From positions 1 through 64,000 of the forward strand of contig NZ_QUKD01000009.1 in assembly GCF_003480915.1 (NCBI RefSeq): a stretch of DNA of 64,000 nt, given 5' to 3'. The translations under genes and the position numbers were made by a program. Shown here piece by piece: positions 4,707 to 47,493 of this stretch. The stretch comes from Parabacteroides sp. TM07-1AC (GTDB taxonomy: Bacteria; Bacteroidota; Bacteroidia; Bacteroidales; Tannerellaceae). The notes beneath the pieces are model-generated. The model saw only the letters and a list, made by a program, of their open reading frames with translations. It searched no databases and was not told the DNA's origin. Each line of letters opens with the position of its first letter. Within the stretch, counting starts at the first letter, position 1.

Positions 4707-4710
4707 TTTC

Positions 4711-6909: not shown

Positions 6910-6987
6910 CCTTTTTACCTTAATGTTTAAAACCTGATAAGTGAATAGGAGAGGTGTGTTGTGTGAAGAAATATACCATTGTTTTAC

Positions 6988-7083: not shown

Positions 7084-7092
7084 TTCGAGTGG

Positions 7093-7124
7093 CAAAGATA
7101 GGGAAAGTTCAGAGATTGCACAAA
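7093..7124 (-). promoter_or_regulatory. Promoter of the thiamine operon
   Basis: On the minus strand, TTTG (7124-7121) is followed after 20 bases by TATCTTTG (7100-7093). This matches the Bacteroidetes consensus TTTG-(19-21)-TAnnTTTG and sits directly upstream of the riboswitch. Confidence 0.75.
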
Positions 7125-17158: not shown

Positions 17159-17725
17159 CTAATTTATATAAAATAGATACAGGAAAACCGGATAATAATC
17201 TTTCAGGCTGGTATGTAGCTTTTTCAAGGCTTTGGAAATATGATACTCGACACCTTTAGTGGTTATTCCCAGCGTTTCCGCAATCGCTTTATGAGATTTG
17301 TTTTCGTAACGACTCATGATAAATACGATCCTGGTCTGTTCCGGTAAACCGGCCAGGGTTTTATTGACTATTTCCTGTGCTTCGGCAGTAAATAGTTCGC
17401 CGGGATCACAGGCCTCCAAAGTCGATATCCGGGTATTCAGTTCCCATTCGGCATGATTCAGTAAATGTTCATTTACATCTTCCCTTACCTGCAGGTGCTG
17501 CAAATAGTTCAGGCATTTGTTTTTAATAATGGTAAGGATATAAGCGGGAACATTCGAATTATCTTCCAGCGAATGGCGGTTCTCCCAATAATACATCAAA
17601 GCCTCGATCGTAAAGTCTTCAGCAACAGCTATATCTCTTACATACGTATTAGCAAAACGAATAAACCGGCCTTGATAATCCGTAAATAATTGATTGAATG
17701 CTTTTAAATCCGTTGTATTTTCCAT
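17159..17725 (-). CDS. ECF RNA polymerase sigma factor, orphan
   Basis: A 188-residue ECF sigma factor of the Bacteroidetes type. Start ATG 17725 (MENTTDLKAFNQLF) is chosen; the longer frame upstream is hydrophobic, AT-rich and not typical. Region 2 is visible as FTDYQGRFIRFANTYV, then EDFTIEALMYYWENR. Region 4 is LPEQTRIVFIMSRYENKSHKAIAETLG, then GVEYHISKALKKL. Most such factors are followed by a fecR-type anti-sigma gene; here nothing follows on the same strand before the convergent GNAT gene. Upstream lies a 680-base repeat-rich gap. Its target and anti-sigma partner are unknown. Confidence 0.9.
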   Translation of the reverse strand: MENTTDLKAFNQLFTDYQGRFIRFANTYVRDIAVAEDFTIEALMYYWENRHSLEDNSNVPAYILTIIKNKCLNYLQHLQVREDVNEHLLNHAEWELNTRISTLEACDPGELFTAEAQEIVNKTLAGLPEQTRIVFIMSRYENKSHKAIAETLGITTKGVEYHISKALKKLHTSLKDYYPVFLYLFYIN

Positions 17726-17847
17726 GACATATTCTATATCCGATGTAAATGTAATGAAAAATATTATAAAATACACATATGTTGATAGTATGATATAAAT
17801 ACATATATTATTAGCAGAAATAATACTATATGATATATATAACAACC

Positions 17848-28202: not shown

Positions 28203-28787
28203 CTATTTCATTGATAGGTAAAGTAATAAAAGGAATAATCCTGTATCGCTATAATTTTGTCTGATTTTTTTCAATGATCGTTGTATCAGGTTTTGTGCAG
28301 ACTGATAATTCATATCCATTAATATACATATCTCTTCCATACTCATTTCTTGAATAAACCGATAGTATATGATCTCTTTTTGACGGGGAGTCAGTATGGA
28401 GAGAATCTCTTTGACTTTCTTTTGTTGATTATTGTATTGTTCATTATTGATGAACTCATCCTCCACTGTGGGTTCGAGTAAGAACGGAACTTGTTCCATC
28501 GTACTTCTTTCGTAGATTGATTCTTTATAAAGAGCACGTAATACACAGTTTTTTATGGTAACAAACAAATATACTTTAATATTATCGGGAACGATGAGAC
28601 GCTCTCTGTTTTTATACAGTTGAGTAAAAACTTCCTGTATGCAATCTTTTATTAGTTCAGGGTTTGAGGTAAAACGAAAGCTGTACTGATATAAGGTTTG
28701 TACATATTTATTATACAACCAACTATACGAGTCGTTATCCCCTGCGATAAACTGGCGCCATTTTATTTTAGTCTCATTATCCTGCAT
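28203..28787 (-). CDS. ECF RNA polymerase sigma factor
   Basis: A 194-residue ECF sigma factor. Region 2: DSYSWLYNKYVQTLYQYSFRF, then LIKDCIQEVFTQLYKNR. Region 4: ILTPRQKEIIYYRFIQEMSMEEICILM, then SAQNLIQRSLKKIR. A fecR gene follows after 93 bases, then susC and susD, the standard sigma/anti-sigma/SusCD order. A full Bacteroidetes promoter lies upstream, so basal expression is from the primary sigma factor. Confidence 0.93.
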   Translation of the reverse strand: MQDNETKIKWRQFIAGDNDSYSWLYNKYVQTLYQYSFRFTSNPELIKDCIQEVFTQLYKNRERLIVPDNIKVYLFVTIKNCVLRALYKESIYERSTMEQVPFLLEPTVEDEFINNEQYNNQQKKVKEILSILTPRQKEIIYYRFIQEMSMEEICILMDMNYQSAQNLIQRSLKKIRQNYSDTGLFLLLLYLSMK

Positions 28788-29009: not shown

Positions 29010-30374
29010 TCAGATAGTTTCAAAAACTGAAAAGTTCATGATTTGGGGATCAGCTTTTGATTCGTCTACAACTAATTTGATTGCGTCGAGCGTTTGAGGT
29101 TCGAAACGGTCGATGTGCTTATGTCCGATGCATGATCCGGAAGCAAGGTCGATCCATTCGTTATTCTTTTTTCCTTTCAGGGAATATTTTAAGATACGTT
29201 CCCCTTTGGCGATGTCCTCCTGCAGGATGACGCGGTTGATGCTGGTCGGTTTATCAAACGACAGGATATACTCTGAGCCGGTTCCGGATGTTTGCTGAAA
29301 CGGAGTTCCGTATTGGCGGACAATCTCTTTGCCTAGCATTTCCACCTGGCGGACATCGGCTTCGGGGATGAGGCCCTTGTTATCGATAACCAGACCCAGC
29401 AGCATATTGGTATTCCTGCCTACACTGGTTTCGTATTTGGTAAGCAGTTCGGGAATCGTGAACATCATGCTGTCCTGTCCGGCTGTCCAGAACCATCCGC
29501 CTTGGAAAGAGCGGTTCCAGCGCAGGGTGAAGTCTGATTCTCCCGGACACCAGAACGGGGCAGAAGGATCGCCGTTCAGACCGTTGATCACACGAGTTCC
29601 GTCGGCATTCGTAGTCGAGTCGGCTGTAGCCCAGCACGGATAAGGTGCGACACCTTCCTCATTACCAACCCATCTGACCAGGTTAGGGTGTCCGTACGGA
29701 CCCTGAAAAGCAATTGCATTCGGTTGTAGTTTCTGTACAAGTGATAATACATCGGCACCTCCCTGTTCTTTAGACAATACACCCCCATCGAACCATATTT
29801 CAAACAGTTCGCCGTAATTACTCCATAACTCGGTTAATTGCTGGGTTACGATTTTATTGTATTCTTCCTGGCTGACAGGGCCTCCTCCCTGCACAACTCC
29901 CGGATTATCAACATATAGATAGCCGTTTGCCGTTGTGCTGGCATAAATGCCCGGTTTGATATTATATTTTTTACAGGAAGCGATAAAGTCGGCAACGATA
30001 TCACCTTCACCGTTTTTCCAGGGAGATTGTTTGATGCTGTAGTCATGTGCCTCTGTAGGCCACAGGCTGAATCCGCTGCAATGCTTGGCTACGAGGACGG
30101 CATATTTGGCTCCCAGTTTATGCGCGGTTTCCAGCCATTGGTCGGTATTCAATTCTGTCGGATTAAAGATTGAAGCATCCGGGTGCGTACCCCAATTCCT
30201 GAAGTTATAATCCGGTTGGTAAACCGGCATGTCAAAATGGATCAATACACCCATTTCTGCATCTGCCCAGGCCAGCTGGCGGGCATTCGGGGTAACAATT
30301 GTTGTTGTTTCGTTTGAAGAACAGGATATAAGAACCGACAGGGCTGCCAGTAATCCTGCAAATGTTTTTTTCAT
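29010..30374 (-). CDS. Alpha-L-fucosidase lipoprotein, GH29
   Basis: A 454-residue exported enzyme removing alpha-linked fucose from glycans. The lipobox cysteine is residue 18 (VLISC). The GH29 (alpha/beta)8 barrel shows MGVLIHFDMP, AKYAVLVAKHCSGFSLWP (substrate-binding His-Cys/His region) and EIWFDGG, where D196 is the expected nucleophile. The C-terminal part (about 350-454) is a beta-sandwich beginning YILSFDKPTSINRVILQEDI, as in discoidin-like domains of GH29. It is downstream of the left susC-susD but separated by a strong terminator, with a near-consensus promoter box (TATACTTG, 30404-30397 on the minus strand). Confidence 0.93.
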   Translation of the reverse strand: MKKTFAGLLAALSVLISCSSNETTTIVTPNARQLAWADAEMGVLIHFDMPVYQPDYNFRNWGTHPDASIFNPTELNTDQWLETAHKLGAKYAVLVAKHCSGFSLWPTEAHDYSIKQSPWKNGEGDIVADFIASCKKYNIKPGIYASTTANGYLYVDNPGVVQGGGPVSQEEYNKIVTQQLTELWSNYGELFEIWFDGGVLSKEQGGADVLSLVQKLQPNAIAFQGPYGHPNLVRWVGNEEGVAPYPCWATADSTTNADGTRVINGLNGDPSAPFWCPGESDFTLRWNRSFQGGWFWTAGQDSMMFTIPELLTKYETSVGRNTNMLLGLVIDNKGLIPEADVRQVEMLGKEIVRQYGTPFQQTSGTGSEYILSFDKPTSINRVILQEDIAKGERILKYSLKGKKNNEWIDLASGSCIGHKHIDRFEPQTLDAIKLVVDESKADPQIMNFSVFETI

Positions 30375-30457: not shown

Positions 30458-32086
30458 TTAATTTGCCCAACCCGGATTTTGAGGTAATAAGTTCGGATTG
30501 TAAGTAAACTCGTCTGTTGGTATCGGATACAAGTACAAACGATCGTACCAGGTACGTGTCATACCTGGATAAAGGACACGGTATTCACCTGTTGCCGGAT
30601 CACGCGGACCTAAATAAGTCTTTTGGTTTTCCAGTAATTTACCGGCTTTCCATCTGCATAAATCATTCCAGCGAAGACCTTCACAAGCCAGTTCCACACG
30701 ACGTTCACGGCGTATTTCATTCAGCAGCGGAGAGATGGCAACTTCCCATTTCGGCCAGTTCGGATCGGTGAATCCTACATTTACCGTCAGGTGTTTCATA
30801 CCGACACGGTCACGCAGTTTATTGATCGTTTTGTCCAAAACCGTTTGGTCGCATTCTCCCAGTTCGGCTTTTGCTTCTGCGTAGTTCAGCAGAACTTCAC
30901 CGTACCGGTAGATCAGGTCGTCCAGCGTACATTTAATATATTCGTTATCCTCTGCTAACGGAGAATACATCTTGTACAAGCGGTAGCCGGTGAATGTCAG
31001 GTTATTGAAGACCGGAGAGTTTTCATATTCTTCCGAACCGTCAGCCAATATGGCGATAGGACGGTCGGGAGTGTAAACGCATTGTTTCAAACGCGGGTCA
31101 CGGTTTTCAAACTCATCCATGAACTTGGCATCTCCTTTATAAAGATTGCTCAATGCAATAGGTTTACCGTCGTTACATAAGAATGATTCTACAAAATCTT
31201 TAGTCATACCTGTTCCAGCTTCACGAACAGTACGGGGACGATTGTTCATACGTTTATCCGTCACATAGGCGGCAAAGAATATGGCTTCTTTATTATTCGT
31301 ATAATCCTGTTGGTTGAACAGCGCATGATAATCGTCTTCAATATTACCGGTAGAGTAGATATCGAAATTACCGCTGTTCATGATTTTTTCAGCAGCTTCC
31401 GCACTCATACGAAGATATTTATCCGCATTTTCAAGATTTCTATATTTTCTCCAGGTTCCTTCAAACAGACAAACTCTGGATTTTAACAGCAACGCCGCGT
31501 ATTTGCTAAGGCGTGAGTCGTTCATCGTTTCCGGCAACCATGCACTGGCTTTATCCAGGCTGGCACAAATAGAATCGATAACTACCCCGCGGTCATTTCG
31601 CGGATTATACAATTCTTCTGAAGAAGTGGTCAGGTCTGTCGTCAACCAGGGCACGTCACCGAAACGAAGCACTTTCTCATAATAAAATTTAGCTTTAAAG
31701 AAATAAATCTCACCGACATACCTATTAATATTTTCCTGAATACCTTCTACCGTATGATAACGATTCAGAAAATAATTACAGCTCCGGATATTAGCCCAAT
31801 CGCTTTTTGCCCAGCCACCTCCGGCTGTAGGAATGGTATAATCGCTCCAGATAAAAGCATCTTTTGTCTGATGTGCCTGGTTGTCGGAAGCATTGTCGTT
31901 GCCGTAAGCACCGGTATTATCCAGTGTAGTATAGAACTGATTGGCAAAGTTTTTCAGGTCATTTTCTGTTTTCCAATAGGTCTCGTCGTTGATCTTATCT
32001 TCCGGATATAAGTCCATAAAATCATTATTACATGCAGAGAATCCAAGTAATAAAGACAAGCTTGCTATATAATATACTTTTTTCAT
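30458..32086 (-). CDS. SusD/RagB-family nutrient-binding lipoprotein (left divergent locus)
   Basis: A 542-residue surface lipoprotein with lipobox cysteine at 19 (LGFSACNNDFMDLYPED). It has the SusD core with YFFKAKFYYEKVLRFGDVPWL and YRYGEVLLNYAEAKAELGECD, and the C-terminal RRERRVELACEGLRWNDLCRW motif typical of the family. It pairs with the susC at 32123. Substrate unknown, but a fucosidase gene lies directly downstream. Confidence 0.94.
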   Translation of the reverse strand: MKKVYYIASLSLLLGFSACNNDFMDLYPEDKINDETYWKTENDLKNFANQFYTTLDNTGAYGNDNASDNQAHQTKDAFIWSDYTIPTAGGGWAKSDWANIRSCNYFLNRYHTVEGIQENINRYVGEIYFFKAKFYYEKVLRFGDVPWLTTDLTTSSEELYNPRNDRGVVIDSICASLDKASAWLPETMNDSRLSKYAALLLKSRVCLFEGTWRKYRNLENADKYLRMSAEAAEKIMNSGNFDIYSTGNIEDDYHALFNQQDYTNNKEAIFFAAYVTDKRMNNRPRTVREAGTGMTKDFVESFLCNDGKPIALSNLYKGDAKFMDEFENRDPRLKQCVYTPDRPIAILADGSEEYENSPVFNNLTFTGYRLYKMYSPLAEDNEYIKCTLDDLIYRYGEVLLNYAEAKAELGECDQTVLDKTINKLRDRVGMKHLTVNVGFTDPNWPKWEVAISPLLNEIRRERRVELACEGLRWNDLCRWKAGKLLENQKTYLGPRDPATGEYRVLYPGMTRTWYDRLYLYPIPTDEFTYNPNLLPQNPGWAN

Positions 32087-32122: not shown

Positions 32123-35100
32123 TTAGAATGTCAGGTTTGCACCGAATGAGAATGATCTGATAAATGGATAAGCGTTTACTGTAGCCAATTCAGGATCGAA
32201 AGTGTCGGGCATTCCGGAGAATTCAAACAAGTTGTCTGCATTAAAGTAAACTCTCAGCTTGGATATTTTTGCTTTTTCCGTGATAAACTTGGGAATCGTA
32301 TAACCTAAAGCTAATTGTTTACAACGAATGTAAGCACCATTCAGCATGAAGCGTGTTTGATTCTGATTGACAGCATCAGCATTGAAACGTGCACGTGGGA
32401 AGAATGCATTTGGATTGTCTTCTCTCCAATAGTCATAATTCATTTTCTGAGGAACAGACCATTGAGAACCATAATGTGACAGGTAGAATGTCTTAGATGG
32501 AATGATATCACGTTTCATGGTTCCCTGGAAGAACAATGTGAAATCAAAGCCTTTATATTCAGCCGTACCACGGATACCAAAGTTATAACGCGGCGTTTCA
32601 TTACCGATAACCTTCATGTCTCCCGAGTTATTTGCAGTGTTTTCACCTTTGGTGATTTTACCGTCACCATCCAGGTCTGCGAACTTTATATCACCTGCAT
32701 ATTGGGTATAACCGACAACTTTCGACTGATCCCATGCTGATGCTTCTTCATTTGACTGGAACAAACCTTCTGTGACGAATCCCCAAATTTCTCCTAACTT
32801 TTTCCCTTCATAATAACTGTCGGACAAGTTTTTTGTCGGATTATCATATTTGGTGATTTCTGCCTGATAGTCCGATAAAGACACGGTTGCACTATAGGCA
32901 AGGCCGTTTTGTAATGCCGATTTCCAGGTTAAAGCAACTTCCCAGCCTTTTGTTCTCAGGTCGGCTGCATTCATTTGAGGTTCTGATACGCCCAGGATAG
33001 AAGGTAATGTTTTTGATTTGGTCAACATATCTTCCGTTGTACGAACATAATAGTCAAATTCACCGGTCAGCTTGCTGTCAAACATAGAGAAGTTGAAACC
33101 TAAGTCCCATTGCTTCACTGTTTCCCAGGTTAGCTGGTCGCTCACCAATCCCGGAGCATATACACCCATCTGTTTCTCTCCGTTGAACAGGTAACCTACT
33201 TCGCCTGTAGAATAGGTGGAAATATACGGATAATAAGAAGCGTAACCGCCCTGGCTTAATACCTGGTTTCCTAACGCACCGTAAGAACCTCTGATCTTGA
33301 AATCATTCACGATATGGGAGATCGGTTTCCAGAATTTCTCCTGTGATAGTCTCCATCCTAATGAGAATGTAGGGAAGAACGCGAAACGATCGTCTTTCGG
33401 GAAATGGGAAGAACCGTCGTAACGTCCGTTTACCTGTACCAGGTATTTATCGTCGTAAGCATAGAACAGACGGAAGAAAGCACCGCGTATAGCCCACTGA
33501 TTCATATAATCGCTGGTCGAACGGTCACCGGTTGCCAGATTCAGGAATGGGATATCATTGGCAATCAGATTGTTTCTGCTCAGTCCAACGCCTTTATAAG
33601 TGGCATTTTCCTGGTTGAAACCGATCATTCCCTCGAAGGCATGTACAGCGTTGATTTTCTTTTTATAAGTGGCATATGCATTGAACACGTCATATTGTGA
33701 TTCATTTTTGGTATACGATACTTGGTTCGGTGAAGTATGCGGGAAGATAGACCCCGGATTTCCATCCGCATCATAATCGATGTATTCGCGAACATGATTC
33801 TTGAAAGAGTAGTTGTAATAATTATATGTATAGTCCACATTGATCTCCAGACCTTCGAACGGGTTCAGTTTTGCAAAGGCCGTTGCATACATATTATTAT
33901 TTCTCATTTCGGCATTACCACCTTGCGACAACCAGGCAGCCTGATTAGTGAAATAACCGTCGCCGCAATAACCGGCAAAGTGTCCGTCCGGATGAGTAAT
34001 AGGCATCAGAGGACGGCTATCGCCCGGGATCGTAGCTCCCAAAGAGTTATTGCCGTATTTATTCTGCGGACCAGTATTCATTTTTACCATTGACAGGGTC
34101 GCTCTCAATCCTAACTGCAACCAGTTATTCACCTTGTAATTCACATGCTGCAATACATTGAAGCGTTTATAATCCTCATCCGTCCATTTGGAAATACCAT
34201 CCTGCTGGAACATACCCGCTGAAGTCATGTATTTAGCAGTTTCGCTACCGCCCTGTATGCTGATATTGTACTGCTGCATCGGATAGCTTTTCTTATTCAA
34301 TGCTTCATACCAGTCTGTATTACCGGCATAACGGTATTTGCTGGGAGAATCGTCCGGATGATGGAATACCGGAGAATTATTGACCGGATCATTGTAATAG
34401 TTTCTGACATGCTGCATCGTGATGTCATCGAAATAGTTACTACCGTTACTGGTCGTATTGGCATCGTTCATCCACTGGGTATACTCCAACGAGTTCATAT
34501 AATTGGCATGAACGGTCGGGACATTTATAGAGTAGTTGGCGCTTAAAGAAACGACCGGCTTTTGTGAAACGAAACCTGTTTTAGTCGTGATCAGGATCAC
34601 ACCGAACGCTGCACGTGCTCCGTAAATAGAAGCCGATGCGGCATCTTTCAAAACGGTAACGTCTTTTACATCCTGTGGATTAATCAGGTTCGGGTCCATT
34701 TCGATACCGTCGACCAGGATCAGCGGACCACCGCCCGATAAGTTGGTTGTACCGCGAATATTGAATGATGTACCTGTTCCCGGTGCACCGTTGGACGATG
34801 TGATGTTCAGGTTGGCAATGGCACCCTGCAGACCGGCTCCCAGGTTGGTCAGCGGACGGTCTTCGATGACTTCCGAACCGACAGTTGCTACGGAACCTGT
34901 CAAGTCGGCTTTTTTCATTGTACCGTATCCTACAACAACCACCTCTTCCAGTGTCTCTGCATCTTCCTGCAGGATAATTTCCATTCTCCTGTTAGGATTC
35001 GCCTTTACCTCCTGTTTAACATAGCCGATAAACGTGATTACCAGTGTGGAGCCTGACCGGGCATTGATCGAGAAGAGTCCGTCTACATCTGTCGTAGTAC

Positions 35101-35572
35101 CATTGGTCGTTCCTTTTTCAACGATGTTGGCACCGATAACGACATCACCATTCGTATCGATAACTTTCCCTTTGATAGTACTGTTTTGTTGCGGAGCAGC
35201 AGCCATATTCTGTTTACCAAGTACGATATGGTTTCCTTCTACAGAATATGTGATACCCGAATCAGCTAACAACTCTTTCAGAACTTCTGCAACTGGTTGA
35301 TTTTTGGCTTTTAAAGATACCTTTTTGTTTACATTTACCTGGTTGTTATAGATGAACAGATAATCAGTCTGATGTTCTATCTCGTTCAGGACTTTTTCCA
35401 GTTGAACATTTTTTTGGTTGATACTGACTCTTGCATTTTGTGAAAAAGTATTATCCGCATAACTGTTAAGTATGCAGACCAAAAGCAGGAACGTCGTGAT
35501 TCTCATAATTCTGAAAATTTTTAAGGGTCGCGGTGCCCGATATTTGCACCTCGACAAAGTGTTTCTTTTCAT
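32123..35572 (-). CDS. SusC/RagA-family transporter with STN domain (left divergent locus)
   Basis: A 1149-residue TonB-linked transporter. A basic leader precedes the signal segment (MRITTFLLLVCILNSYA), then an STN domain (about 45-115, VSINQKNVQLEKVLNEIEHQ). A CarboxypepD-like domain (about 130-215), the signature EEVVVVGYGTMKKADLTGSV, a plug and the barrel follow. Its N-terminus is closely similar to the susC at 37905 on the other strand, so the two divergent loci are paralogous. Upstream on the same strand is the 5'-truncated fecR, with a conserved hairpin in the spacer. Confidence 0.95.
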   Translation of the reverse strand: MKRNTLSRCKYRAPRPLKIFRIMRITTFLLLVCILNSYADNTFSQNARVSINQKNVQLEKVLNEIEHQTDYLFIYNNQVNVNKKVSLKAKNQPVAEVLKELLADSGITYSVEGNHIVLGKQNMAAAPQQNSTIKGKVIDTNGDVVIGANIVEKGTTNGTTTDVDGLFSINARSGSTLVITFIGYVKQEVKANPNRRMEIILQEDAETLEEVVVVGYGTMKKADLTGSVATVGSEVIEDRPLTNLGAGLQGAIANLNITSSNGAPGTGTSFNIRGTTNLSGGGPLILVDGIEMDPNLINPQDVKDVTVLKDAASASIYGARAAFGVILITTKTGFVSQKPVVSLSANYSINVPTVHANYMNSLEYTQWMNDANTTSNGSNYFDDITMQHVRNYYNDPVNNSPVFHHPDDSPSKYRYAGNTDWYEALNKKSYPMQQYNISIQGGSETAKYMTSAGMFQQDGISKWTDEDYKRFNVLQHVNYKVNNWLQLGLRATLSMVKMNTGPQNKYGNNSLGATIPGDSRPLMPITHPDGHFAGYCGDGYFTNQAAWLSQGGNAEMRNNNMYATAFAKLNPFEGLEINVDYTYNYYNYSFKNHVREYIDYDADGNPGSIFPHTSPNQVSYTKNESQYDVFNAYATYKKKINAVHAFEGMIGFNQENATYKGVGLSRNNLIANDIPFLNLATGDRSTSDYMNQWAIRGAFFRLFYAYDDKYLVQVNGRYDGSSHFPKDDRFAFFPTFSLGWRLSQEKFWKPISHIVNDFKIRGSYGALGNQVLSQGGYASYYPYISTYSTGEVGYLFNGEKQMGVYAPGLVSDQLTWETVKQWDLGFNFSMFDSKLTGEFDYYVRTTEDMLTKSKTLPSILGVSEPQMNAADLRTKGWEVALTWKSALQNGLAYSATVSLSDYQAEITKYDNPTKNLSDSYYEGKKLGEIWGFVTEGLFQSNEEASAWDQSKVVGYTQYAGDIKFADLDGDGKITKGENTANNSGDMKVIGNETPRYNFGIRGTAEYKGFDFTLFFQGTMKRDIIPSKTFYLSHYGSQWSVPQKMNYDYWREDNPNAFFPRARFNADAVNQNQTRFMLNGAYIRCKQLALGYTIPKFITEKAKISKLRVYFNADNLFEFSGMPDTFDPELATVNAYPFIRSFSFGANLTF

Positions 35573-35626: not shown

Positions 35627-35660
35627 CTGCCGGCTATTGCCCCCCAGCGTTTACCGGCAG
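35627..35660 (-). other. Conserved hairpin in the left fecR-susC spacer
   Basis: CTGCCGG pairs with CCGGCAG around a loop that on the minus strand reads TAAACGCTGGGGGGCAATAG. The same structure occurs in the right locus at 37815-37850, with 27 of 31 bases shared. Likely an mRNA element; function unknown. Confidence 0.6.
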
Positions 35661-35713: not shown

Positions 35714-36382
35714 TTATTTGATATAAATAATGTGATTTTCGTCATCCCGTTCATAAGTAAACTTTATATCTTTCTGCAAGACTCTCAGTGCATAATCCAC
35801 ACCGTCTGTCTGGCGGAACTTTCCGGTATACAGATATTTCTGAACCTGTTGGTTTGTGATATAGATGTTTATCCCATAATATTTTTCAAAATCTTTCATG
35901 ATCGAAGCGAATGTTTCGTTCTTGAAACAGATCAATCCTTCTCTCCAACGATAAGGAGAATAGTCGTCGACCGGTTTTATCCTTAACTTCCCATTATACA
36001 GATAGGCTTTGTTGTGGGGCGTGAGCAGCAGGTTCTCCGCAGCATCCGTCAGCGATGAAATCTTGACACTTCCTTCCATCAAGGTTGTTTCGAATATCTC
36101 GGTTTCCGAATAAGAGTCGACGTCGAATTTAGTTCCCAATACTTCTACGTTATATTTATTCGTTTGCACGATGAATGGTTTGTCTTTATCTTTTGCTACG
36201 TCGAAATAGGCCTCACCGTCCAGTTTTACCAAACGCTCTTTGGCGTTGAAGCTGACAGGATACTGGATCGTGGTACGCGCATTCAGCCAGACATTCGTTC
36301 CGTCTGCCAAAGTGATATTGATCCGCTGGCCTGCCGGAACGGAGATTGTCTGTAAGGCTACGGGGGTCTCTTCCGTTTGCAT
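35714..36382 (-). pseudogene. FecR-family anti-sigma factor lacking its 5' part (silent copy of an invertible fecR)
   Basis: An open frame of 222 residues from the only available ATG (36382). It covers the FecR domain (TISVPAGQRINITLADGTNVWLN..) and DUF4974 (to the end), about three quarters identical by eye to the intact copy at 36806. Homology continues in frame upstream of the ATG to 36464 and encodes LSSLRTEVIKIASIIVLTLG, the membrane segment, but there is no start codon. It stops exactly at the inverted repeat shared with the other copy. The cytosolic sigma-binding domain (65 residues) is missing, so as oriented it should not work. Inverting 36465-36999 would restore a 314-residue protein (35714-36658). 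Annotated as broken in this orientation; possibly a real gene in the other. Confidence 0.85.
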
Positions 36383-36437
36383 TTCCTGGTAGATAAAACT
36401 CCCTCCAAGCGTTAGGACGATAATCGATGCAATTTTG

Positions 36438-36464
36438 ATAACCTCAGTCCTAAGAGAACTAAGG
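36438..36464 (-). repeat. Left inverted repeat of the fecR switch
   Basis: On the minus strand it reads CCTTAGTTCTCTTAG, then G, then ACTGAG. The right copy (37000-37026) differs only by A for G within 22 bp. The unit is itself an imperfect dyad (CTTAGTTCT-CTT-AGRACTGAG), like a tyrosine-recombinase crossover site. Confidence 0.8.
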
Positions 36465-36999
36465 TGATAAAATTCTTTCCGAAAGAAATTTAATTTTCAT
36501 TCGGAAGAAATCGAAAATACTCCCGAGAGAATAAAAAAACATACAAAATGTAAAATATCATTTTGCTAGTACTATAGCGGGTAAATCAAATTTCTACCCC
36601 ATGTAAATTGAATTAGTATACCGGGTAATATTTTTTAACGTATCAGTATGCTGAAGAAATAATCCTTTTTGTATCACTCTGGCAAAGTGGAAATAATCTG
36701 TTCAAAAAGAGAAATTGATTTAATTGTATTTTTTTTATTATTTTACTAGGGATATTCAATTGTGAACTGCTATTAGTTATAGAAGGGACATTCTAAACAA
36801 CGGAAATGGATAAAGATACATTATATAATTTTTTTGAAGGCAACGCATCTTTAGATGAGGAAATGGCTGTAAGACAGTGGATGGAAGAGTCCGCTGAAAA
36901 CCGTCAGGCTTTTCTGAAAGAGCGAAAACTATTTGATGCGATGTTACTTTTAGGAAATGAAAAAGTAATAAAAGCCGGAAAGAAAAGATTCAGAATAGA
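36465..36999. other. Predicted invertible segment between the two fecR copies
   Basis: 535 bp bounded by inverted repeats. It carries the noncoding stretch 36465-36805 and codons 1-64 plus part of codon 65 of the intact right fecR. The third base of the junction codon is the first base of both repeats (c36464 and c37000), so inversion keeps frame on both sides. No exact TAnnTTTG promoter box is visible on either strand of 36465-36805; a GGGGTA..CCC dyad at 36578-36600 may be the promoter element. A 13-codon frame (start near 36496, minus strand) that ends in the repeat is probably meaningless. Confidence 0.7.
36578..36600. promoter_or_regulatory. Near-palindromic CGGGTA..TACCCC element in the switch segment
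   Basis: CGGGTAAATC on the plus strand faces GGGGTAGAAATTTG on the minus strand. It resembles the element before the sigma-regulated susC (26838-26862) and could serve either direction. Low certainty. Confidence 0.3.
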
Positions 37000-37750
37000 C
37001 CTTAGTTCTCTTAGAACTGAGTTAATCAAAATAGCAGCTGTCATAGCGGTCACTTTGGGAGGCAGCTATCTGTTCCACCAGTACGCATTGGAAAAAGAAC
37101 TGATGGCGATGCATACAATTAGGGTTCCTGCCGGACAGCGGATTAATATTACTTTGACTGACGGTACGAATGTCTGGTTAAATGCCAGGACTTCACTTAC
37201 ATATCCGGTAAAGTTCGGTAAAAAGAATCGCCGGGTGGTATTGGATGGAGAGGCTTATTTCGATGTGGCGAAAGACAAAGACAAGCCTTTTATCGTACAA
37301 ACGGATCAATATAACGTAGAAGTGTTGGGGACTAAATTCGATGTGGATGCCTATGCTGAAACGGGAGAGTTTGAAACAACGTTAATGTCAGGTAGCGTAC
37401 GGGTAGCTTCCACGAGTGATCCGGAGCAGAAATTAACGTTGAAACCGAACAATAAGGTCTATTTGCAGGATGGTAAATTGCATGTGACTACTGTAGACGA
37501 TTTCAATCCTTACAGGTGGAAGGAGGGCTTGATCTGCTTTAAAAATGAATCGTTTACATCTATTATGGCAGATTTTGAGAAGTATTACGGATTGTCGATC
37601 CGGGTACGGAATATGGAAGTGCTTAAATACGCTTACACCGGTAAATTCCGTCAGACAGACGGTATAGATTATGCACTGAGGGTGCTACAGAAGGATATAA
37701 AGTTTACTTATCAGCGAGATGATGAAAATCAAATAATCTATATAGAGTAA
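36806..37750 (+). CDS. FecR-family anti-sigma factor, intact copy of the switch
   Basis: A 314-residue inner-membrane anti-sigma factor. Residues 1-65 form the cytosolic sigma-binding part (MDKDTLYNFFEGNASLDEE..). One membrane segment lies at about 73-91 (LIKIAAVIAVTLGGSYLF). The FecR domain (about 103-200) has RINITLTDGTNVWLN and FIVQTDQYNVEVLGTKFDV; DUF4974 occupies about 245-313. Codon 66 (CTT, 37001) is where similarity to the left copy begins, inside the inverted repeat. No sigma gene is adjacent, unusual for the family. susC follows after 154 bases with a hairpin between. Confidence 0.94.
   Translation: MDKDTLYNFFEGNASLDEEMAVRQWMEESAENRQAFLKERKLFDAMLLLGNEKVIKAGKKRFRIDLSSLRTELIKIAAVIAVTLGGSYLFHQYALEKELMAMHTIRVPAGQRINITLTDGTNVWLNARTSLTYPVKFGKKNRRVVLDGEAYFDVAKDKDKPFIVQTDQYNVEVLGTKFDVDAYAETGEFETTLMSGSVRVASTSDPEQKLTLKPNNKVYLQDGKLHVTTVDDFNPYRWKEGLICFKNESFTSIMADFEKYYGLSIRVRNMEVLKYAYTGKFRQTDGIDYALRVLQKDIKFTYQRDDENQIIYIE
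37000..37026 (+). repeat. Right inverted repeat of the fecR switch, inside the intact fecR
   Basis: CCTTAGTTCTCTTAG, then A, then ACTGAG: inverted match to 36438-36464 with one mismatch in 22 bp, and 31 of 35 bases if extended. It overlaps codons 65-74 of the intact fecR. Confidence 0.8.
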
Positions 37751-37814: not shown

Positions 37815-37850
37815 AATGCCGGCAAGCGCTGGGGGGCAATTACCGGCATT
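37815..37850 (+). other. Conserved hairpin in the right fecR-susC spacer
   Basis: AATGCCGG (37815-37822) pairs with CCGGCATT (37843-37850) around the loop CAAGCGCTGGGGGGCAATTA. It matches the element at 35627-35660 in the left locus. No T-run follows, so it is not a typical terminator; attenuation, processing or an sRNA target are possible. Confidence 0.6.
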
Positions 37851-37904: not shown

Positions 37905-40900
37905 ATGAAAAAAAACTCTTTGTCGGGTAGGTATTATCCTAAATCCCCGCAACTTAAACAAATCTTTAGAATTATGCGAATCACCACATTCCTGTTATTA
38001 GTTTGTGTTTTTTGCTCTTTCGCGGAAAATACACATTCTCAGAATGCCCGGGTAAGCATTAGTAAGAGTAATGCTAGACTGGACAATGTATTAAGTGAGA
38101 TAGAAAGTCAGACAGATTATTTGTTTATTTATAATAATCAGGTAGATGTTAATCGGAAAGTTTCTGTAAAAGTAAAAAATAAACCTGTATCCTCTGTTTT
38201 GGATGATCTGTTCAAAAATACAGGAATCAGATACGCAATGGAAGGGACACATATCGTTCTGACTAAAAATGCAGAAAATGCTAATCCTACGCAACAGCAA
38301 ACGAGACATATAACAGGTACTGTCATTGATGTGAATGATGAACCTGTTATTGGTGCTAATGTTGTTGTAAAAGGTACGACTAACGGGACAATTACAGATT
38401 TGGACGGCCGTTTTACCATCGAAGCTGATTCTAAATCTGTATTGAATGTATCTTATATTGGGTATCTGACGAAAGAAATTACTGTCGGGAATCAACAATC
38501 GATCCGTATCATATTATTGGAGGATACGAAAACACTGGACGAAGTTGTGGTAATCGGTTATGGAACACAGAAAAAAGCGGACTTGACAGGCTCGGTGGCC
38601 AATGTCAATACGGACGATCTGAACACACAAAGTAATACGACGATCGGACAGGCTCTGCAAGGAAAGATTGCCGGTGTAGATATTGTCTCTCAAGGCGGAA
38701 CACCTGGTGGAAGTACACGTATTATGGTTCGTGGTATCGGTACGTTGAACAATTCAGCTCCTTTATATATTGTCGATGGTATGTATATGACTGGGATAGA
38801 CCATATCAATCCGAACGATATTGCCAGTATCGACGTATTGAAAGACGCTTCTTCAGCAGCTATTTATGGTTCTCGTGCAGCCAATGGTGTGATCATCGTG
38901 ACTACAAAAGAAGGATCAAATACGGAGGGCAAACCTATTATTGACCTTTCGGCCAATATCGGTGTCAGTGCACCATCCAAATATTTGAATCTGCTAAATG
39001 CTGCTGGATGGGCTGAGGTTACAACTGTTTCCCGAAGGGCCGCAGGGTTGGAGCCTCTTGATATGGCTCTTGATTTGTCATCCAAACCAGACAATGATTG
39101 GCAGGATATTATGTTTGGTCCGGCATTAATGCAGAACTATGCTCTTTCCGTAAAAGGGGGAGGAAAATACTCCACTTATTATAACAGTGTCGGTTATACG
39201 AATCAAGACGGTGTGATGAAAGGTACCAACTATCAGCGTTATACATTGCAGAGCAAGCAGGATTTTAAAAAGGGTATTTTTACAGCCGGAACGAATGTGG
39301 TTTTGACTTACGATCAGAGTGATCCGTTGTATGGAGCTATCCGAGGCGGTATGGTTGGGCACACTTTGCAGTCAATTCCGACTTTGGAAAAATATGATTC
39401 AAGCAATGAAGGGGGCTACGGTAGCTTGTATGGTGATGTGGTGAATTTGCAACACCCTATGGGAATGGTTGATGACGCGTTGGAAAACCGGTATAGTGAT
39501 AATGTAAAGATCTATGCGAATGCCTATGTATCCGTGGAGCCGATAAAAGGATTAAAATATAAGCTGAATGTTGCTCCGGACTTCCAGTTCTATCGTTATA
39601 ATGATTATGAAGGATTGTATAGTTATGGTTTGGCAAAGAATGAAGTGACACAGGTGACGGAGCAACAGACAAGAACACGTAATGTGTTGGTTGAAAATCT
39701 GCTTTCTTACGACCAGACATTTGGCGAACATAAGGTATCATTGTTGGCCGGTTATACTTATCAAGATTCCCGCTATCGTTTCTTGCAAGGTTCTGGTCAG
39801 GGAATGCCCGTTGGAATTATGGAAATTGATGCTGCGGCCGGTGGTTTGGCTGTAAGTGGTAATTCTACTCGTAGTGTGTTGACGTCTATTTTAGGCCGTG
39901 CTTTCTATTCTTATAAGAATCGTTATTTGATTACGGCTACAATTCGCCGTGACGGTTCTTCCAAATTCGGATCGAATCATCGCTATGGCAATTTCCCTTC
40001 TATTTCTGCTGGTTGGAATATTGCAGAAGAAGGTTTTGTGAAGAATAATGTGTCCTGGCTGGATCAGTTGAAATTGAGAGCCGGTTATGGGGTATTAGGT
40101 AATCAGGAGATTTCCAATTATCAGTTTGTGTCAGTTGTGTCGACAGGTATTAACTATCCAAATGGTAATGGTGGTCTGATACAGGGAGCTTTTCCGAAAA
40201 CATTTGCAAATCCGGATATCAAGTGGGAAGAAACAGCCATGACGAATGTCGGAATCGACTTTATGGCTTTGCGAAACCGACTGACATTGACGGCTGACTG
40301 GTACGTGAAAAACACAAAGGATATTCTATTGAATGTCCCTATTCCTATATCAACCGGAGGTTCTAATGATCCGATCCGCAACGCCGGGAAAATCCGTAAT
40401 CAAGGAGTTGAGTTTAATATCGGTTGGAATGAAACATTGAATAAAGACTTTTCTTATGGCGTAAATTTCCTGGGGACATATAATAAGAATGAAGTGGTGG
40501 AAATGGGAGCTGAGTCACAGGCTATCACCGGTGGAACAATACATGGTGGAACTTACACAAGCAAGACGTTGGCTGGCTATCCGATCGGAGGGTTTTGGTT
40601 GATTCCGACCGATGGCTATTTCAATAGTGAAGCCGAAGTGAATGCCCATCAAAAGGATGGCAACTTAATCCAGCCAAGTGCAGAACCGGGTGATATTCGC
40701 TTCAAGGATACGAACAATGATGGAACAATCAACGATGACGACCGGGTATATTGTGGTAGCCCATTCCCGAAATTCACTTACTCAATCAATGGTAATATTA
40801 CGTATAAAAAATGGGATTTTTCAATTGGATTCCAGGGAGTTACGGGTAATAAAATTTATAACGCGACGAATCTGGAACTGACAGATGTCACACGAGGTAC

Positions 40901-41261
40901 AAATTATTTGGCAAGTACCTTGGATTATTGGACTCCAGATAATCAAAATGCAGCCAGCCCTCGTTTGATTTGGACAGATCCGAACCGGAATGCCCGTTCC
41001 GAGTCTGATCGTTATTTGGAAAGTGGCTCTTATTTCCGTTTGAGAAACCTGCAGGTTGGTTATACATTGCCTCTTGCATGGTGTCGTGGTCTGGTGCAGA
41101 AAGCACGTGTGTATGTGAATGCGGAAAATCTCTTTACGATTACGTCCTATTCCGGATATACGCCGGATGTGAATTCCTCTGATGTCTATTCTCGTGGTTT
41201 CGATGAGTTTATATATCCATCCAACCGTACCTTTATGGTTGGTTTGAATGTTACATTTTAA
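37905..41261 (+). CDS. SusC/RagA-family transporter with STN domain (right divergent locus)
   Basis: A 1118-residue TonB-linked outer-membrane transporter. Leader and signal segment (MRITTFLLLVCVFCSFA, about 24-40) precede an STN domain (about 47-117) and a CarboxypepD-like domain (about 130-210). The signature DEVVVIGYGTQKKADLTGSV, the plug with RIMVRGIGTLNNSAPLYIVDG and the barrel follow. The STN domain and fecR upstream imply regulation by an ECF sigma factor. It is paired with susD 12 bases downstream. The linked GH2/GH20 genes suggest import of galactose- and N-acetylhexosamine-containing oligosaccharides. Confidence 0.95.
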   Translation: MKKNSLSGRYYPKSPQLKQIFRIMRITTFLLLVCVFCSFAENTHSQNARVSISKSNARLDNVLSEIESQTDYLFIYNNQVDVNRKVSVKVKNKPVSSVLDDLFKNTGIRYAMEGTHIVLTKNAENANPTQQQTRHITGTVIDVNDEPVIGANVVVKGTTNGTITDLDGRFTIEADSKSVLNVSYIGYLTKEITVGNQQSIRIILLEDTKTLDEVVVIGYGTQKKADLTGSVANVNTDDLNTQSNTTIGQALQGKIAGVDIVSQGGTPGGSTRIMVRGIGTLNNSAPLYIVDGMYMTGIDHINPNDIASIDVLKDASSAAIYGSRAANGVIIVTTKEGSNTEGKPIIDLSANIGVSAPSKYLNLLNAAGWAEVTTVSRRAAGLEPLDMALDLSSKPDNDWQDIMFGPALMQNYALSVKGGGKYSTYYNSVGYTNQDGVMKGTNYQRYTLQSKQDFKKGIFTAGTNVVLTYDQSDPLYGAIRGGMVGHTLQSIPTLEKYDSSNEGGYGSLYGDVVNLQHPMGMVDDALENRYSDNVKIYANAYVSVEPIKGLKYKLNVAPDFQFYRYNDYEGLYSYGLAKNEVTQVTEQQTRTRNVLVENLLSYDQTFGEHKVSLLAGYTYQDSRYRFLQGSGQGMPVGIMEIDAAAGGLAVSGNSTRSVLTSILGRAFYSYKNRYLITATIRRDGSSKFGSNHRYGNFPSISAGWNIAEEGFVKNNVSWLDQLKLRAGYGVLGNQEISNYQFVSVVSTGINYPNGNGGLIQGAFPKTFANPDIKWEETAMTNVGIDFMALRNRLTLTADWYVKNTKDILLNVPIPISTGGSNDPIRNAGKIRNQGVEFNIGWNETLNKDFSYGVNFLGTYNKNEVVEMGAESQAITGGTIHGGTYTSKTLAGYPIGGFWLIPTDGYFNSEAEVNAHQKDGNLIQPSAEPGDIRFKDTNNDGTINDDDRVYCGSPFPKFTYSINGNITYKKWDFSIGFQGVTGNKIYNATNLELTDVTRGTNYLASTLDYWTPDNQNAASPRLIWTDPNRNARSESDRYLESGSYFRLRNLQVGYTLPLAWCRGLVQKARVYVNAENLFTITSYSGYTPDVNSSDVYSRGFDEFIYPSNRTFMVGLNVTF

Positions 41262-41273
41262 ATAGATAATTAT

Positions 41274-42824
41274 ATGAAGCGAATATATTTATATTTTATG
41301 TTTTGTGCTGCAGCCGTTTTGGGTTTGAGTACATCCTGTGACTCTCAATTGGATCAGATAAATCCAAATAAAGCGACAGAAGATACGTTTTGGGAGAGTA
41401 AGGCGGATTTTGAACTGGCTTTGACTTCTTGTTATACTCCATTGAAAAATGCTTTGAATGGCGGTTATTATGGAACACGAGGGGTGATGATGCGTATCGC
41501 ACGTGCCGATGAGGTAGAATTCAGGAATGATATTAGCGATGTATTCCAAGCTTGCTATTTTACGAATACAAATGGTAATTCTCTTTCTCAAGGAATGTTT
41601 TATCAGTTTTATAATGCTTTGTATCGAACCAATTCCATTATGCAGAAACTGGAAGAAAAAGGAGGAGAGTTTGAATCTGAATTTGTGGATAAGGTAAAAG
41701 GCGAATGTTTATTTATTCGAGGTTTCTATCTGTTTCAGTTGGGTAAAGAATTTAAGAATGCTCCGTTGCGTATGACGGCTTCGCAGTCTCCTTCCACTTT
41801 CCCTTTGGAAAAAGCGACTCAGGCAGAGATTTGGGCACAGGCCGAACAGGATTTGATGACGGCTGCTTCTTTGTTGCCGGTAGTAAACGATGTGATAGGA
41901 AAACCAACCCGAGGAGCTGCTTATGCAATGTTGGGTAAGCTGTATGTGTATGCGGAAAGTTTTGATAAGGCTATCCAGGTGCTGGAACCACTGACCAAGT
42001 CGCCTTATACCTATAGCCTGGTAGATGATTTTGCATGGAATTTTGATGAAGCACATGAAAACAACTCGGAAAGCATTTTCGAATTGTTGATGGAGCCGGT
42101 TGGTGGTACAGATATTTGGGGAGACGGAGAAAACCTCAACTCGACGCAAACCAATACTCGTCCGAAAGAATATGCCGCCCCCGAAGCTGGAGGCTGGTAT
42201 GAAGCACAACCGACCCAACAGATGATGGATATGTTTTGGGCTGAAAAAGATAAGGATGGCAATTCGGATTATCGGGCACGCGCTTCTGTGGCTTGGGACT
42301 ATGAAGGTTGTATGTATTATTTGAAGCCTTTCCGTGAAAAGTTCGGGTCAGACAAGTGGAATTCTTATTGGATATTGAAATACCAGAATTGGAATACGGC
42401 AGAATCTGAGGCCTCACCTCCTATGTCTTGTATCAATGAGCGTGCTATCCGTTATGCAGATGTCATTTTACTATTGGCAGAATCTTATCTGCGTGGTTCG
42501 CAGGATTTATCAAAAGCAATTGTTTATTTGAACCAAATCCGTGAACGGGCAAACTTGAATCCTTATAGTGGAGCACAGACATACGAGGCTGTTTTTAATG
42601 ATTTGGAACGTCAGCGTGCTATTGAGTTCTTTGTAGAAGGCGAACGTTTCTACGATCTGCGTCGTTGGGGATTGTTGGAAAAGCGTATGGAAACTTGTAA
42701 TTCTGTTCGCTATAAGCAGCTAATGACAGGAAAAGTTGGAGACACGAATCGTTATTATTACTATCCTATACCTTCGAAGGAATTGGAAACGAATACGTTA
42801 TGTACACCTAATGAGGGTTGGTAG
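41274..42824 (+). CDS. SusD/RagB-family nutrient-binding lipoprotein (right divergent locus)
   Basis: A 516-residue surface lipoprotein with lipobox cysteine near 22 (LGLSTSCDSQLDQINPN). It has KGECLFIRGFYLFQLGKEFKNAPL and RYADVILLLAESYLRGSQD, then LERQRAIEFFVEGERFYDLRRWG, the SusD C-terminal signature. It is coupled to the preceding susC. A terminator-like hairpin follows before the enzyme genes. Confidence 0.94.
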   Translation: MKRIYLYFMFCAAAVLGLSTSCDSQLDQINPNKATEDTFWESKADFELALTSCYTPLKNALNGGYYGTRGVMMRIARADEVEFRNDISDVFQACYFTNTNGNSLSQGMFYQFYNALYRTNSIMQKLEEKGGEFESEFVDKVKGECLFIRGFYLFQLGKEFKNAPLRMTASQSPSTFPLEKATQAEIWAQAEQDLMTAASLLPVVNDVIGKPTRGAAYAMLGKLYVYAESFDKAIQVLEPLTKSPYTYSLVDDFAWNFDEAHENNSESIFELLMEPVGGTDIWGDGENLNSTQTNTRPKEYAAPEAGGWYEAQPTQQMMDMFWAEKDKDGNSDYRARASVAWDYEGCMYYLKPFREKFGSDKWNSYWILKYQNWNTAESEASPPMSCINERAIRYADVILLLAESYLRGSQDLSKAIVYLNQIRERANLNPYSGAQTYEAVFNDLERQRAIEFFVEGERFYDLRRWGLLEKRMETCNSVRYKQLMTGKVGDTNRYYYYPIPSKELETNTLCTPNEGW

Positions 42825-42945: not shown

Positions 42946-45399
42946 ATGAAATATATAAGTCAATGGAAATGGATTCTCTCCTTGTTGCTTTGCTGTTTTT
43001 TTCATGCGGAAGCTGCGGAGGTTATTCGTTTTGATTTGGGTTGGAAATTCAGTTTGAATGATGTGGGGGAGGAGGCTGTCTTTCCCGGTTATAATGATTC
43101 TGCCTGGCGGACATTAAATTTGCCTCACGATTGGAGTATAGAGGGGACATATGAGCAAACGGCCAACGGGACAGACTGGCAAAGCGGTTTTTTGCCGGCA
43201 GGAATAGGATGGTATCGTAAAACGTTTGCTTATGATCCTGCATGGGCTACTAAAAAAGTCCGTATCCGGTTTGATGGAATTTATCTGAATAGTGAAGTTT
43301 GGATTAATGGTCATTCTTTAGGTAAACGGCCGAATGGCTATATCGGTTTTGAATATGATCTGACTCCTTATTTGAGAAAGGGGAATAATTGTATTGCGGT
43401 GAAAGTCGACCAGTCTAAACCTCTCACCGGGCGTTGGTATACAGGTTCTGGTATATATCGGCATGTTCATCTGATCATATCTTCTCCGGTACATATTTCC
43501 TATTCGGGTGTTTATTTTAAAGTAGATACCTTTTTGCCAGAGAAGGCGCTGTGTTCAGTTGAGGTTTCCGTTGTAAATCCGGAAAAGGAGAAAGTACGGA
43601 TCGTTTCCTGCTTACAGGATAGGAATGGGATAATCGTAGCTGAAAGTTTTGGAACAGAAGATCTTTTTGGGCAAGATAAAATGCGGATGACTGTTGTATC
43701 TCCGAAGCGCTGGTCTCCTGAGAATCCGATTGTTTATACGTTGATATGCCGGTTGGAAAAGTCTGGGAAGTTATTGGATGAGGTTCGACAATTGGTTGGT
43801 TTTCGCTCTTTGGAATTTAGTCCGGAATTTGGCTTTAAGCTGAATGGAGAGGTTACAAAGTTAAAAGGGGTATGTGATCATCATACGGCAGGAGCTGTTG
43901 GTGCCGCTGTGCCGGAAGATATTTTGTATTATCGATTGAAGTTGCTGAAAGAAATGGGGTGTAATGCGATTCGTACTTCTCATAATCCTTTTTCTCCGGA
44001 GTTTTATACGATGTGTGATACAATGGGATTAATGGTTTTGAATGAAGGGTTGGATGGCTGGAATATCCCGAAAGCAGTAGATGATTATGGAAACTATTTT
44101 GACGAATGGTGGGAAAAAGATATGACAGACTTTATCAAGCGTGATCGTAATCATCCGTCTGTTATTATGTGGAGCATTGGAAATGAGGTGAATGGTGCAT
44201 CACAAGAGATACAACGTAATTTGGTGGATTTGTTTCATTCGCTAGACGTGCGTCCGGTAACACAAGGTGGGGCTGATCCTACTCGCGGAATGTCTGTAGA
44301 CTATAAAAAGAATTTTGGAATGCTTGATATTGTCGGTTTCAATGGTAATGGGGAGGAAATCGGTGAACTGGAGAAATTTAGGGATAAATATCCGTCTGTA
44401 TGTGCTGTTGCGACGGAAGTACCCCATACTTACCAAACGCGTGGTGTTTACAGGACAAAAACTCAGTGGAGAAGGAGAGACTTCCCAGCTCCTTGGGAAA
44501 AGAAAAATCCGATTAAATGGGATTTGTTTGAGAAGCGGGTGTTCCCAATCCCCGACCTTGCTGCGGAAGAGTTTTTTCCGGAAGAGGAGATTCATCCATA
44601 TTATCAATCATCGTATGACAATGCTTCGGTACGTATCAGTGTTCGCAGAGCCTGGCAAAGGACCTGTGCATTCCCTTGGTTGATGGGCGAGTTTCGCTGG
44701 GGTAGTTTTGATTATTTGGGAGAAGCTGAGTGGCCGCAACGTTGTGGTAATTTCGGTATTATTGATGTGGCTGCCATGCCTAAAGATGCTTATTATCTGT
44801 ATCAGAGTCTGTGGACTGATAAACCGATGGTACATTTGCTGCCTCATTGGACTCACATGGGAAAAGAAGGGAAAATAGTACCGGTTGTCGTATATACGAA
44901 TTGTGATTCTGTTGAATTGTTATTAAATAATGTATCTTTGGGCACTCAACCTTATAAAGGAGAACAATTGGTTTGGAATATACCTTATGAATCAGGCCGT
45001 ATTGAGGCAAAGGCGAAGAACGGGAATAGAATAGTGGCAACAGATATGCAACAAACAGCATCGTTAGCCTATACGGTCAGCTGCTCTGCAAACAAATTGG
45101 AGTTACAGGCTGGTTCTGCTGAGGTGGCAAGGCTTGAGTTCTCAGTAGTCGACCGGAATGGTGTTTTATGTCCGTATGCGTCAGATGAACTGTCATTCGA
45201 TTTGGATGGACCTATTCGCTTGTTAGGAGTGGATAATGGAGATCCGGTTGATATGTTCCCATACAAACAGCCCCGCTGCAGGAGTTTTAGGGGAAAATGT
45301 GTTTTATTGATACAGGCTGCCGATATACCAGGGAAAGCGGCCGTAACTGTACGTTCAGAGAAGTTGACTGAAAAGAAAATAATGTTGGAAATAAAATGA
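42946..45399 (+). CDS. Glycoside hydrolase family 2, beta-galactosidase-like
   Basis: An 817-residue exported enzyme; the signal peptide ends near HAEAA. The GH2 order is a jelly-roll domain (about 25-190, with LPHDWSIEG and GTGIYR-like SGIYRHVHL), an immunoglobulin-like domain, then the TIM barrel from about 300 (GVCDHHTAGAVGAA). E414 in WSIGNEVNG is the expected acid/base and E582 in LMGEFRWG the nucleophile. A C-terminal beta-sandwich (about 630-817) follows. Likely activity is beta-galactosidase, with other beta-glycosidases possible. It overlaps the GH20 start. Confidence 0.9.
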   Translation: MKYISQWKWILSLLLCCFFHAEAAEVIRFDLGWKFSLNDVGEEAVFPGYNDSAWRTLNLPHDWSIEGTYEQTANGTDWQSGFLPAGIGWYRKTFAYDPAWATKKVRIRFDGIYLNSEVWINGHSLGKRPNGYIGFEYDLTPYLRKGNNCIAVKVDQSKPLTGRWYTGSGIYRHVHLIISSPVHISYSGVYFKVDTFLPEKALCSVEVSVVNPEKEKVRIVSCLQDRNGIIVAESFGTEDLFGQDKMRMTVVSPKRWSPENPIVYTLICRLEKSGKLLDEVRQLVGFRSLEFSPEFGFKLNGEVTKLKGVCDHHTAGAVGAAVPEDILYYRLKLLKEMGCNAIRTSHNPFSPEFYTMCDTMGLMVLNEGLDGWNIPKAVDDYGNYFDEWWEKDMTDFIKRDRNHPSVIMWSIGNEVNGASQEIQRNLVDLFHSLDVRPVTQGGADPTRGMSVDYKKNFGMLDIVGFNGNGEEIGELEKFRDKYPSVCAVATEVPHTYQTRGVYRTKTQWRRRDFPAPWEKKNPIKWDLFEKRVFPIPDLAAEEFFPEEEIHPYYQSSYDNASVRISVRRAWQRTCAFPWLMGEFRWGSFDYLGEAEWPQRCGNFGIIDVAAMPKDAYYLYQSLWTDKPMVHLLPHWTHMGKEGKIVPVVVYTNCDSVELLLNNVSLGTQPYKGEQLVWNIPYESGRIEAKAKNGNRIVATDMQQTASLAYTVSCSANKLELQAGSAEVARLEFSVVDRNGVLCPYASDELSFDLDGPIRLLGVDNGDPVDMFPYKQPRCRSFRGKCVLLIQAADIPGKAAVTVRSEKLTEKKIMLEIK

Positions 45400-47459: not shown

Positions 47460-47493
47460 TAGACTTAATTTATAACATACAAATTATTTGACC

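Follow-up and report, generated by a model that had tools for sequence, protein, structure and literature searches.

Inversions in hsdS and phage tail-fibre genes join a constant part to alternative variable parts, and it is the variable parts that move. Among Bacteroidales, shufflon-type inversions at SusC/SusD clusters are described for Tsr0667 of Bacteroides fragilis, and promoter flipping for Tsr19 of the same species (PMC4747536); a review covers inversions of promoters, of cassettes and within genes in gut Bacteroidales (PMC12632263). In the papers cited here, Bacteroidales inversions mostly alter which surface molecule is made. The signalling systems FecI/FecR/FecA, PupI/PupR/PupB (6ovk) and FoxR/FoxA (PMC11637429) are described as having an anti-sigma head, a membrane helix and a fixed periplasmic tail for the signalling domain of a receptor, and the STN domains of SusC proteins as acting in anti-sigma signalling (PMC7782687). 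We analyzed a 64,000-nucleotide stretch of Parabacteroides sp. TM07-1AC (contig NZ_QUKD01000009.1, positions 1 to 64,000; hereafter the window), in which two facing copies of fecR stand between two SusC/SusD loci that point away from each other. A segment between the two facing sensor tails (36465-36999) is probably inverted by a site-specific recombinase, which would fuse one head to either of two FecR tails, each beside its own SusC.

The locus shares features with each of these systems and differs from all of them. As in the Tsr0667 shufflon, the proposed inversion is short, site-specific and located at SusC/SusD genes, and the core of the Parabacteroides site adjoins SusC genes too; there, as described, SusC/SusD expression is shuffled, whereas here susC and susD would be stationary and the head of a signalling protein would move. 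Within-gene inversions, as reviewed, likewise alter a product from inside its reading frame, but here a single head would be shared by two facing genes, each of which would yield a complete anti-sigma factor. With promoter-inversion systems the locus would have in common a promoter-bearing segment between inverted repeats and one recombinase acting on local and distant sites; in those systems the promoter inverts and the protein is unchanged. Unlike hsdS and the tail-fibre genes, it would be the constant head and its upstream DNA that move, while the variable tails stay beside their own receptor genes. The head, helix and tail arrangement is that of FecR, PupR and FoxR, with the difference that the tail here would be switchable. 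Inversions in P. distasonis are reported by a genome-wide screen whose main text does not contain the term FecR (PMC5903667); neither "FecR" nor "anti-sigma" occurs in the main text of a survey of invertons in a defined gut community (PMC11892184). No inverting anti-sigma factor is described in the titles and abstracts of the literature searched, a search that left most subscription journals outside its scope.

Both fecR copies encode Pfam FecR and FecR_C domains. The right copy (36806-37750, plus strand) codes for 314 amino acids (aa), and the left (35714-36382, minus strand) is a headless open reading frame of 222 aa, a sensor tail with a ratio of nonsynonymous to synonymous substitution rates (dN/dS) of 0.03–0.08. 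The two are linked by an inverted repeat of 22 bp with one mismatch, the arms of which are candidate recombination sites. The left arm (36443-36464, minus; core 36446-36460) lies at the point where the left fecR loses its head. The right arm, CCTTAGTTCTCTTAGAACTGAG (37000-37021, plus; core AGTTCTCTTAGAACT at 37004-37018), is in frame, and its codons read LSSLRTE, residues 66–72 of the right FecR. A larger alignable block surrounds the arms (36387-36465 and 36999-37077). Similarity ends at the arms toward the center and outward runs on into the homologous tails. These results bear out a preliminary description of the locus, which had reported the facing repeat and the abrupt end of similarity on its inner side. 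That description had also held that the left frame continues back to the repeat without a stop or a start; the frame indeed runs without a stop across the repeat and for a further 12 codons, and its first ATG, GTG or TTG is the ATG at tail codon 27. The left membrane-helix codons (36383-36460, minus), which are conserved as protein, have no start codon upstream in the window.

The predicted invertible segment spans 535 bp and consists of the upstream region and a 65-codon head, with homologues of similar length in four other genomes. Inversion of 36465-36999 in silico yielded an open left fecR of 314 aa, the length that had been predicted. The segment contains no susC or susD sequence and thus none of the moved cassettes of a SusC/SusD shufflon. 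Direct repeats ACTATAGCGGGTAA and AGTATACCGGGTAA within it (36571-36628, plus) are conserved in an alignment of five genomes and are a possible operator. An argument from chance held in part: 22-mer inverted matches with at most one mismatch occurred in 0 of 20 dinucleotide-shuffled windows, but a second such match, due to homology of the gene bodies, is present at 36135/37308. The 22-bp repeat alone is therefore not decisive proof of a switch, since facing paralogues yield another. What raises it above mere paralogy is that the site and the headed/headless design are conserved in five genomes, that heads are common to both tails, and that the core is reused in the genus.

Proteins carrying one head on either tail were identified in databases. 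A search with the headless left tail as query gave 7923 matches, of which the 120 top-ranking cluster representatives were classed; flipped forms were observed here as protein sequences. P0001, carried on a 97-kb contig, is identical to the predicted flipped left product at 312 of 314 positions. Its residues 1–65 match the right head of the window at 64 of 65 positions, and the left tail recurs unchanged as its C-terminal 222 residues (222 of 222). In P. gordonii, the simulated flipped left protein and P0012 agree at 312/314 positions, as do the present right protein and P0054. Three exact 65-residue heads each occur on left and right tails (P0003 versus P0041 and others; P0013 and P0016 versus P0042; P0012 versus P0054). 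The preliminary description had raised the case of relatives whose left fecR is intact but starts from an unrelated 5' end; intact left forms instead carry a right-type head, identical over 65/65 residues for these three heads and 64/65 for that of the window. Left-type sequence begins at residue 73 in P0001, 78 in P0012 and 82 in the other three headed-left proteins, just past the site codons 66–72.

Among the 120 listed representatives, 73 were headed-right, five headed-left and 14 headless-left (15 with P0018, headless by eye). Three were headless-right (P0057, P0072 and P0089), of which P0072 and P0089 have a longest contig of 1.94 Mb in common and may be one gene, and four right-tailed proteins had partial or odd starts. 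Mixed or unassignable tails numbered at most 20 (13 headed, seven headless), an upper bound because sequences were assigned to this class by matching them without gaps from the C-terminal end; it also counts P0067, a FecR that is more distant, and P0068, a left-type fragment with a frame shift. Tails that are mosaics of left and right sequence were observed in P0015, P0017, P0022-P0024, P0026, P0029-P0032, P0034 and P0036, mostly on short contigs, with P0032 on a 61-kb and P0036 on a 19-kb contig, and may reflect homologous recombination or chimeric assembly. Given the headed-left and headless-right proteins, the orientation of the segment does not look fixed in nature. We infer inversion as the source of both protein forms and site-specific recombination as its means.

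The break falls at a predicted domain boundary. Codons 1–65 of the right fecR (36806-37000, plus) form a three-helix, anti-sigma-like head in the predicted structure, and this head is predicted to be cytosolic. A Foldseek search with the head model returned seven matches up to E 10 (seven chains, four entries), all of them anti-sigma domains and all weak (E 2.2–5.6). The head sequence compared with solved structures gave a best match of only E 0.21, and the NCBIfam FecR model aligns from residue 14 at 65 bits, under its cut-off of 385. The remainder of the gene (37001-37750, plus) encodes the linker, the membrane helix and the FecR and FecR_C sensor tail, with Pfam matches and a fold resembling the PupR signalling domain (6ovk, 4m0h). 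The junction thus lies, in the predicted structure, between the anti-sigma-like head and the membrane helix. That the moving part is an anti-sigma head, as had been proposed, agrees with the exchange of heads among proteins and with a model that matches anti-sigma domains alone, each weakly.

The headed-right, headless-left design was found in five Parabacteroides genomes: the window, P. faecis (L001), P. gordonii (L002/G001), G015 and G040. The core is conserved in all five, with one change in the left arm of the window; its two copies have inner ends 541–545 bp apart, and the reading frame is kept across the break in every genome. In the genus as a whole, a FecR match (E ≤ 1e-60) was present in 25 of 38 genomes and the fecR site pair in three of 38. 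A scan of contigs found nine fecR loci, two with the site and seven without it at up to four mismatches. Three further genomes (G004, G014 and G017) have a headed right FecR and SusC with similar neighbors and no left module between them, and the left module was probably gained, or disappeared from these genomes, in one piece.

Headless left tails gave dN/dS values of 0.032–0.082 (10 of 10 genome pairs) versus 0.050–0.073 for headed right tails (10 pairs), rough values because synonymous sites are near saturation. The left membrane-helix codons (tail codons 7–26, 20 codons) had a proportion of nonsynonymous differences (pN) of 0.097 and of synonymous differences (pS) of 0.589, and the right codons 0.083 and 0.655 (10 genome pairs). 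By these sequence comparisons, purifying selection is as strong on the headless left tail as on the headed one, and constraint on a silent copy is what a switch predicts. Homogenization of the arms, visible by eye in P. faecis and P. gordonii, was not used as evidence, because the average left/right identity of the first block is no higher within genomes (0.77) than between them (0.78). Three other genes had appeared headless. A repeat search round two of them found no such repeat: G015:C11, which has a sigma gene directly upstream and a 5' part that is diverged or frame-shifted, and G035:C138. These were rejected as second head switches; in the third, G023:C42, the match begins 171 bases from a contig end.

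Copies of the core were also found elsewhere in the genus. The pattern AGTTCTYTTAGAACT occurred 35 times in 10 of 38 genomes, and a reversed-pattern control gave four hits in three other genomes. Inverted pairs of one polarity less than 600 bp apart account for 22 of the 35 sites (11 pairs in six of the 38 genomes): three fecR pairs at 559–560 bp and eight other pairs at 358–423 bp. At all eight of the latter, the start of a SusC-like gene lies beside at least one site; the SusC at P. gordonii L010 was checked with Pfam, and genes at the other seven pairs match it at 26%–92% identity. Several of these pairs contain, by eye, boxes resembling the TAnnTTTG consensus quoted in PMC4747536. Inverted pairs of AGTTCTYTTAGAACT with one polarity beside SusC genes point to site-specific inversion, and the fecR pair seems to use a recombination system that flips SusC promoters elsewhere, with the anti-sigma head as extra cargo. 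Same-family sites were observed upstream of SusC genes at L010, L011 and L012 (P. gordonii) and at L046 and L047. In the last two, SusC-like genes diverge on either side of one pair, which suggests two-way invertible promoters. Two P. gordonii contigs, C2 and C3, start within 100 bases of same-family sites. When 393 genomes of the order were scanned with a 21-base pattern (up to two mismatches), nine matched. Outside P. gordonii, the hits did not outnumber those of the reversed control; P. gordonii itself had six hits and no control hit.

The check for a recombinase, which the preliminary description had proposed, produced two candidates, neither of them diagnostic. A conserved XerD-like tyrosine recombinase, L065 (E ≤ 1e-60), is present in nine of the 10 site-bearing genomes and also in 16 of the 28 others. 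A tyrosine recombinase gene at L044:5622-6851 lies about 0.4 kb from an inverted site pair in G016, and was not found in P. gordonii at E ≤ 1e-80. Their distribution profiles ruled out both as diagnostic recombinases, and L065 is only a candidate for the recombinase of the switch.

Four other explanations were weighed. The repeat could be conserved coding sequence of facing paralogues and the left fecR a decaying paralogue lacking its 5' end, as the second 22-mer match in the gene bodies, the similar linker residues of the non-switch FecRs L070 (SSLGTE) and L072 (SSLRTE) and the constant headless side in all five genomes would allow; but headed-left proteins with the head of the right gene exist, the headless tail is as constrained as the headed one, and inverted pairs of the core recur elsewhere in the genus, and we consider decay very improbable. 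Nearly as improbable, and marginally the least credible of the four, is that in some strains each fecR has a head of its own and gene conversion keeps the two alike, without inversion. Recent conversion could explain the identity of heads, and such an account gains from the flipped forms being known as proteins alone; however, none of the five genomes has two heads, and headless right tails occur, as inversion predicts.

The other two explanations accept that the segment inverts. It could do so by homologous recombination between the facing fecR copies, with no dedicated recombinase, and the mixed-tail FecRs (including P0032 and P0036) and the conserved blocks common to both tails are consistent with this. 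Against it, left-type sequence begins just past the site in all five headed-left proteins, sites beside SusC genes in the genus match the core and have a fixed polarity, and arms so short and imperfect probably make frequent exchange unlikely; we regard this route as unlikely. A more serious possibility, though still the less favored one, is that inversion acts mainly by promoter switching, the head being moved as a passenger of the promoter upstream of it. This account shares the inversion with the head-switch reading and disputes only the rewiring of the sensor. It draws on sister sites with TAnnTTTG-like boxes in the segments between them, upstream of SusC genes, and on the conserved direct repeats in the segment. 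Set against it are a break inside the reading frame at a domain boundary, with the frame kept in five of five genomes, and a hairpin-like leader between fecR and susC on both sides.

Several observations weigh against the head-switch reading. The comparison of orientation in relatives was divided: headed-left and headless-right proteins occur, but all five assembled genomes are oriented like the window, their right copy being the headed one, which also argues against an even mix, and headed-left forms are a minority. Flipped DNA (site plus tail) had no match in a scan of viral contigs. Mixed tails need another process or chimeric assembly, and the sigma partner and recombinase are both predicted only. 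Of the five genomes, the window and G040 lack any start codon upstream of the left membrane-helix codons; P. faecis (TTG), P. gordonii (TTG) and G015 (ATG) each have a single possible alternative start, so a headless left form with a membrane helix could be translated in these three. These alternative starts slightly lower our confidence in the switch. In G015 (L051), the ATG lies six codons before the site core and the database contains a 254-aa form, P0020; a headless, membrane-anchored FecR acting as a decoy is possible there. Taken with the protein forms, the conserved design and the reuse of the core, the locus is very likely a real switch.

In the proposed mechanism, a site-specific recombinase would flip 36465-36999 between the two in-frame inverted arms. 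The window would show the phase with a headed right tail and a left tail that is silent for want of a head, and a flip would reverse this exactly. With the site between the head and the membrane helix, either fusion would be a normal 314-residue FecR. Each tail adjoins its own STN-bearing SusC (left, 32123-35572, minus, Pfam STN and NCBIfam SusC/RagA; right, 37905-41261, plus, by domain search), so a flip would change the receptor heard by a single anti-sigma factor: the head and one sigma factor would report via the right SusC in one phase and via the left SusC in the other. It is on balance favored, with less assurance than the inversion, that inversion rewires signalling in this way, plugging one anti-sigma head and sigma regulon into either periplasmic sensor so that sister cells answer different glycans via the same program.

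There is no sigma gene between the two fecR copies, and the nearest unpaired one in the window is 19 kb from the pair rather than adjacent to it, as is usual. This orphan extracytoplasmic function (ECF) sigma factor (17159-17845, minus; Sigma70_r2/r4, TIGR02985; start of the open reading frame probably over-called) has no adjoining fecR, and another sigma gene (28203-28787) has its own (26895-28109). Homologues of the orphan stand directly upstream of fecR in six of seven non-switch loci, with none found in L006, and keep their place beside suf genes in G001, G015 and G040. Because the orphan has no fecR of its own, its homologue precedes fecR in those six loci and its place is kept, it is probably the partner of the switched FecR.

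The left locus continues with a SusD (30458-32086, minus) and an alpha-L-fucosidase-like gene (29010-30374, minus), and the right with a SusD (41274-42824, plus) and three glycosidases of glycoside hydrolase (GH) families GH2, GH20 and GH2 (42946-50160, plus), all identified by domain search. The hairpin-like leader in the gap between the left fecR and susC (35628-35659, minus) has a near-identical (88%) counterpart on the right (37817-37848), which is conserved in four other genomes; neither leader matched Rfam at gathering cut-offs. Given these leaders, both susCD operons may share control. Elsewhere in the window, a thiamine pyrophosphate (TPP) riboswitch (6973-7088, minus) lies ahead of a TonB receptor, a gene resembling nicotinamide mononucleotide (NMN) transporters and a thiamin pyrophosphokinase, and this region (3485-7095) is likely a thiamine uptake operon.

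If the switch operates as proposed, inversion would change the input of the cell and keep the output sigma factor, giving a heritable and reversible choice of input. It would explain a conserved "broken" fecR gene, and the recombination core would be written into the codons of a protein linker. The locus would also offer a natural scaffold for altering the input of a FecR pathway, and through it phase variation of signal transduction becomes open to direct test.
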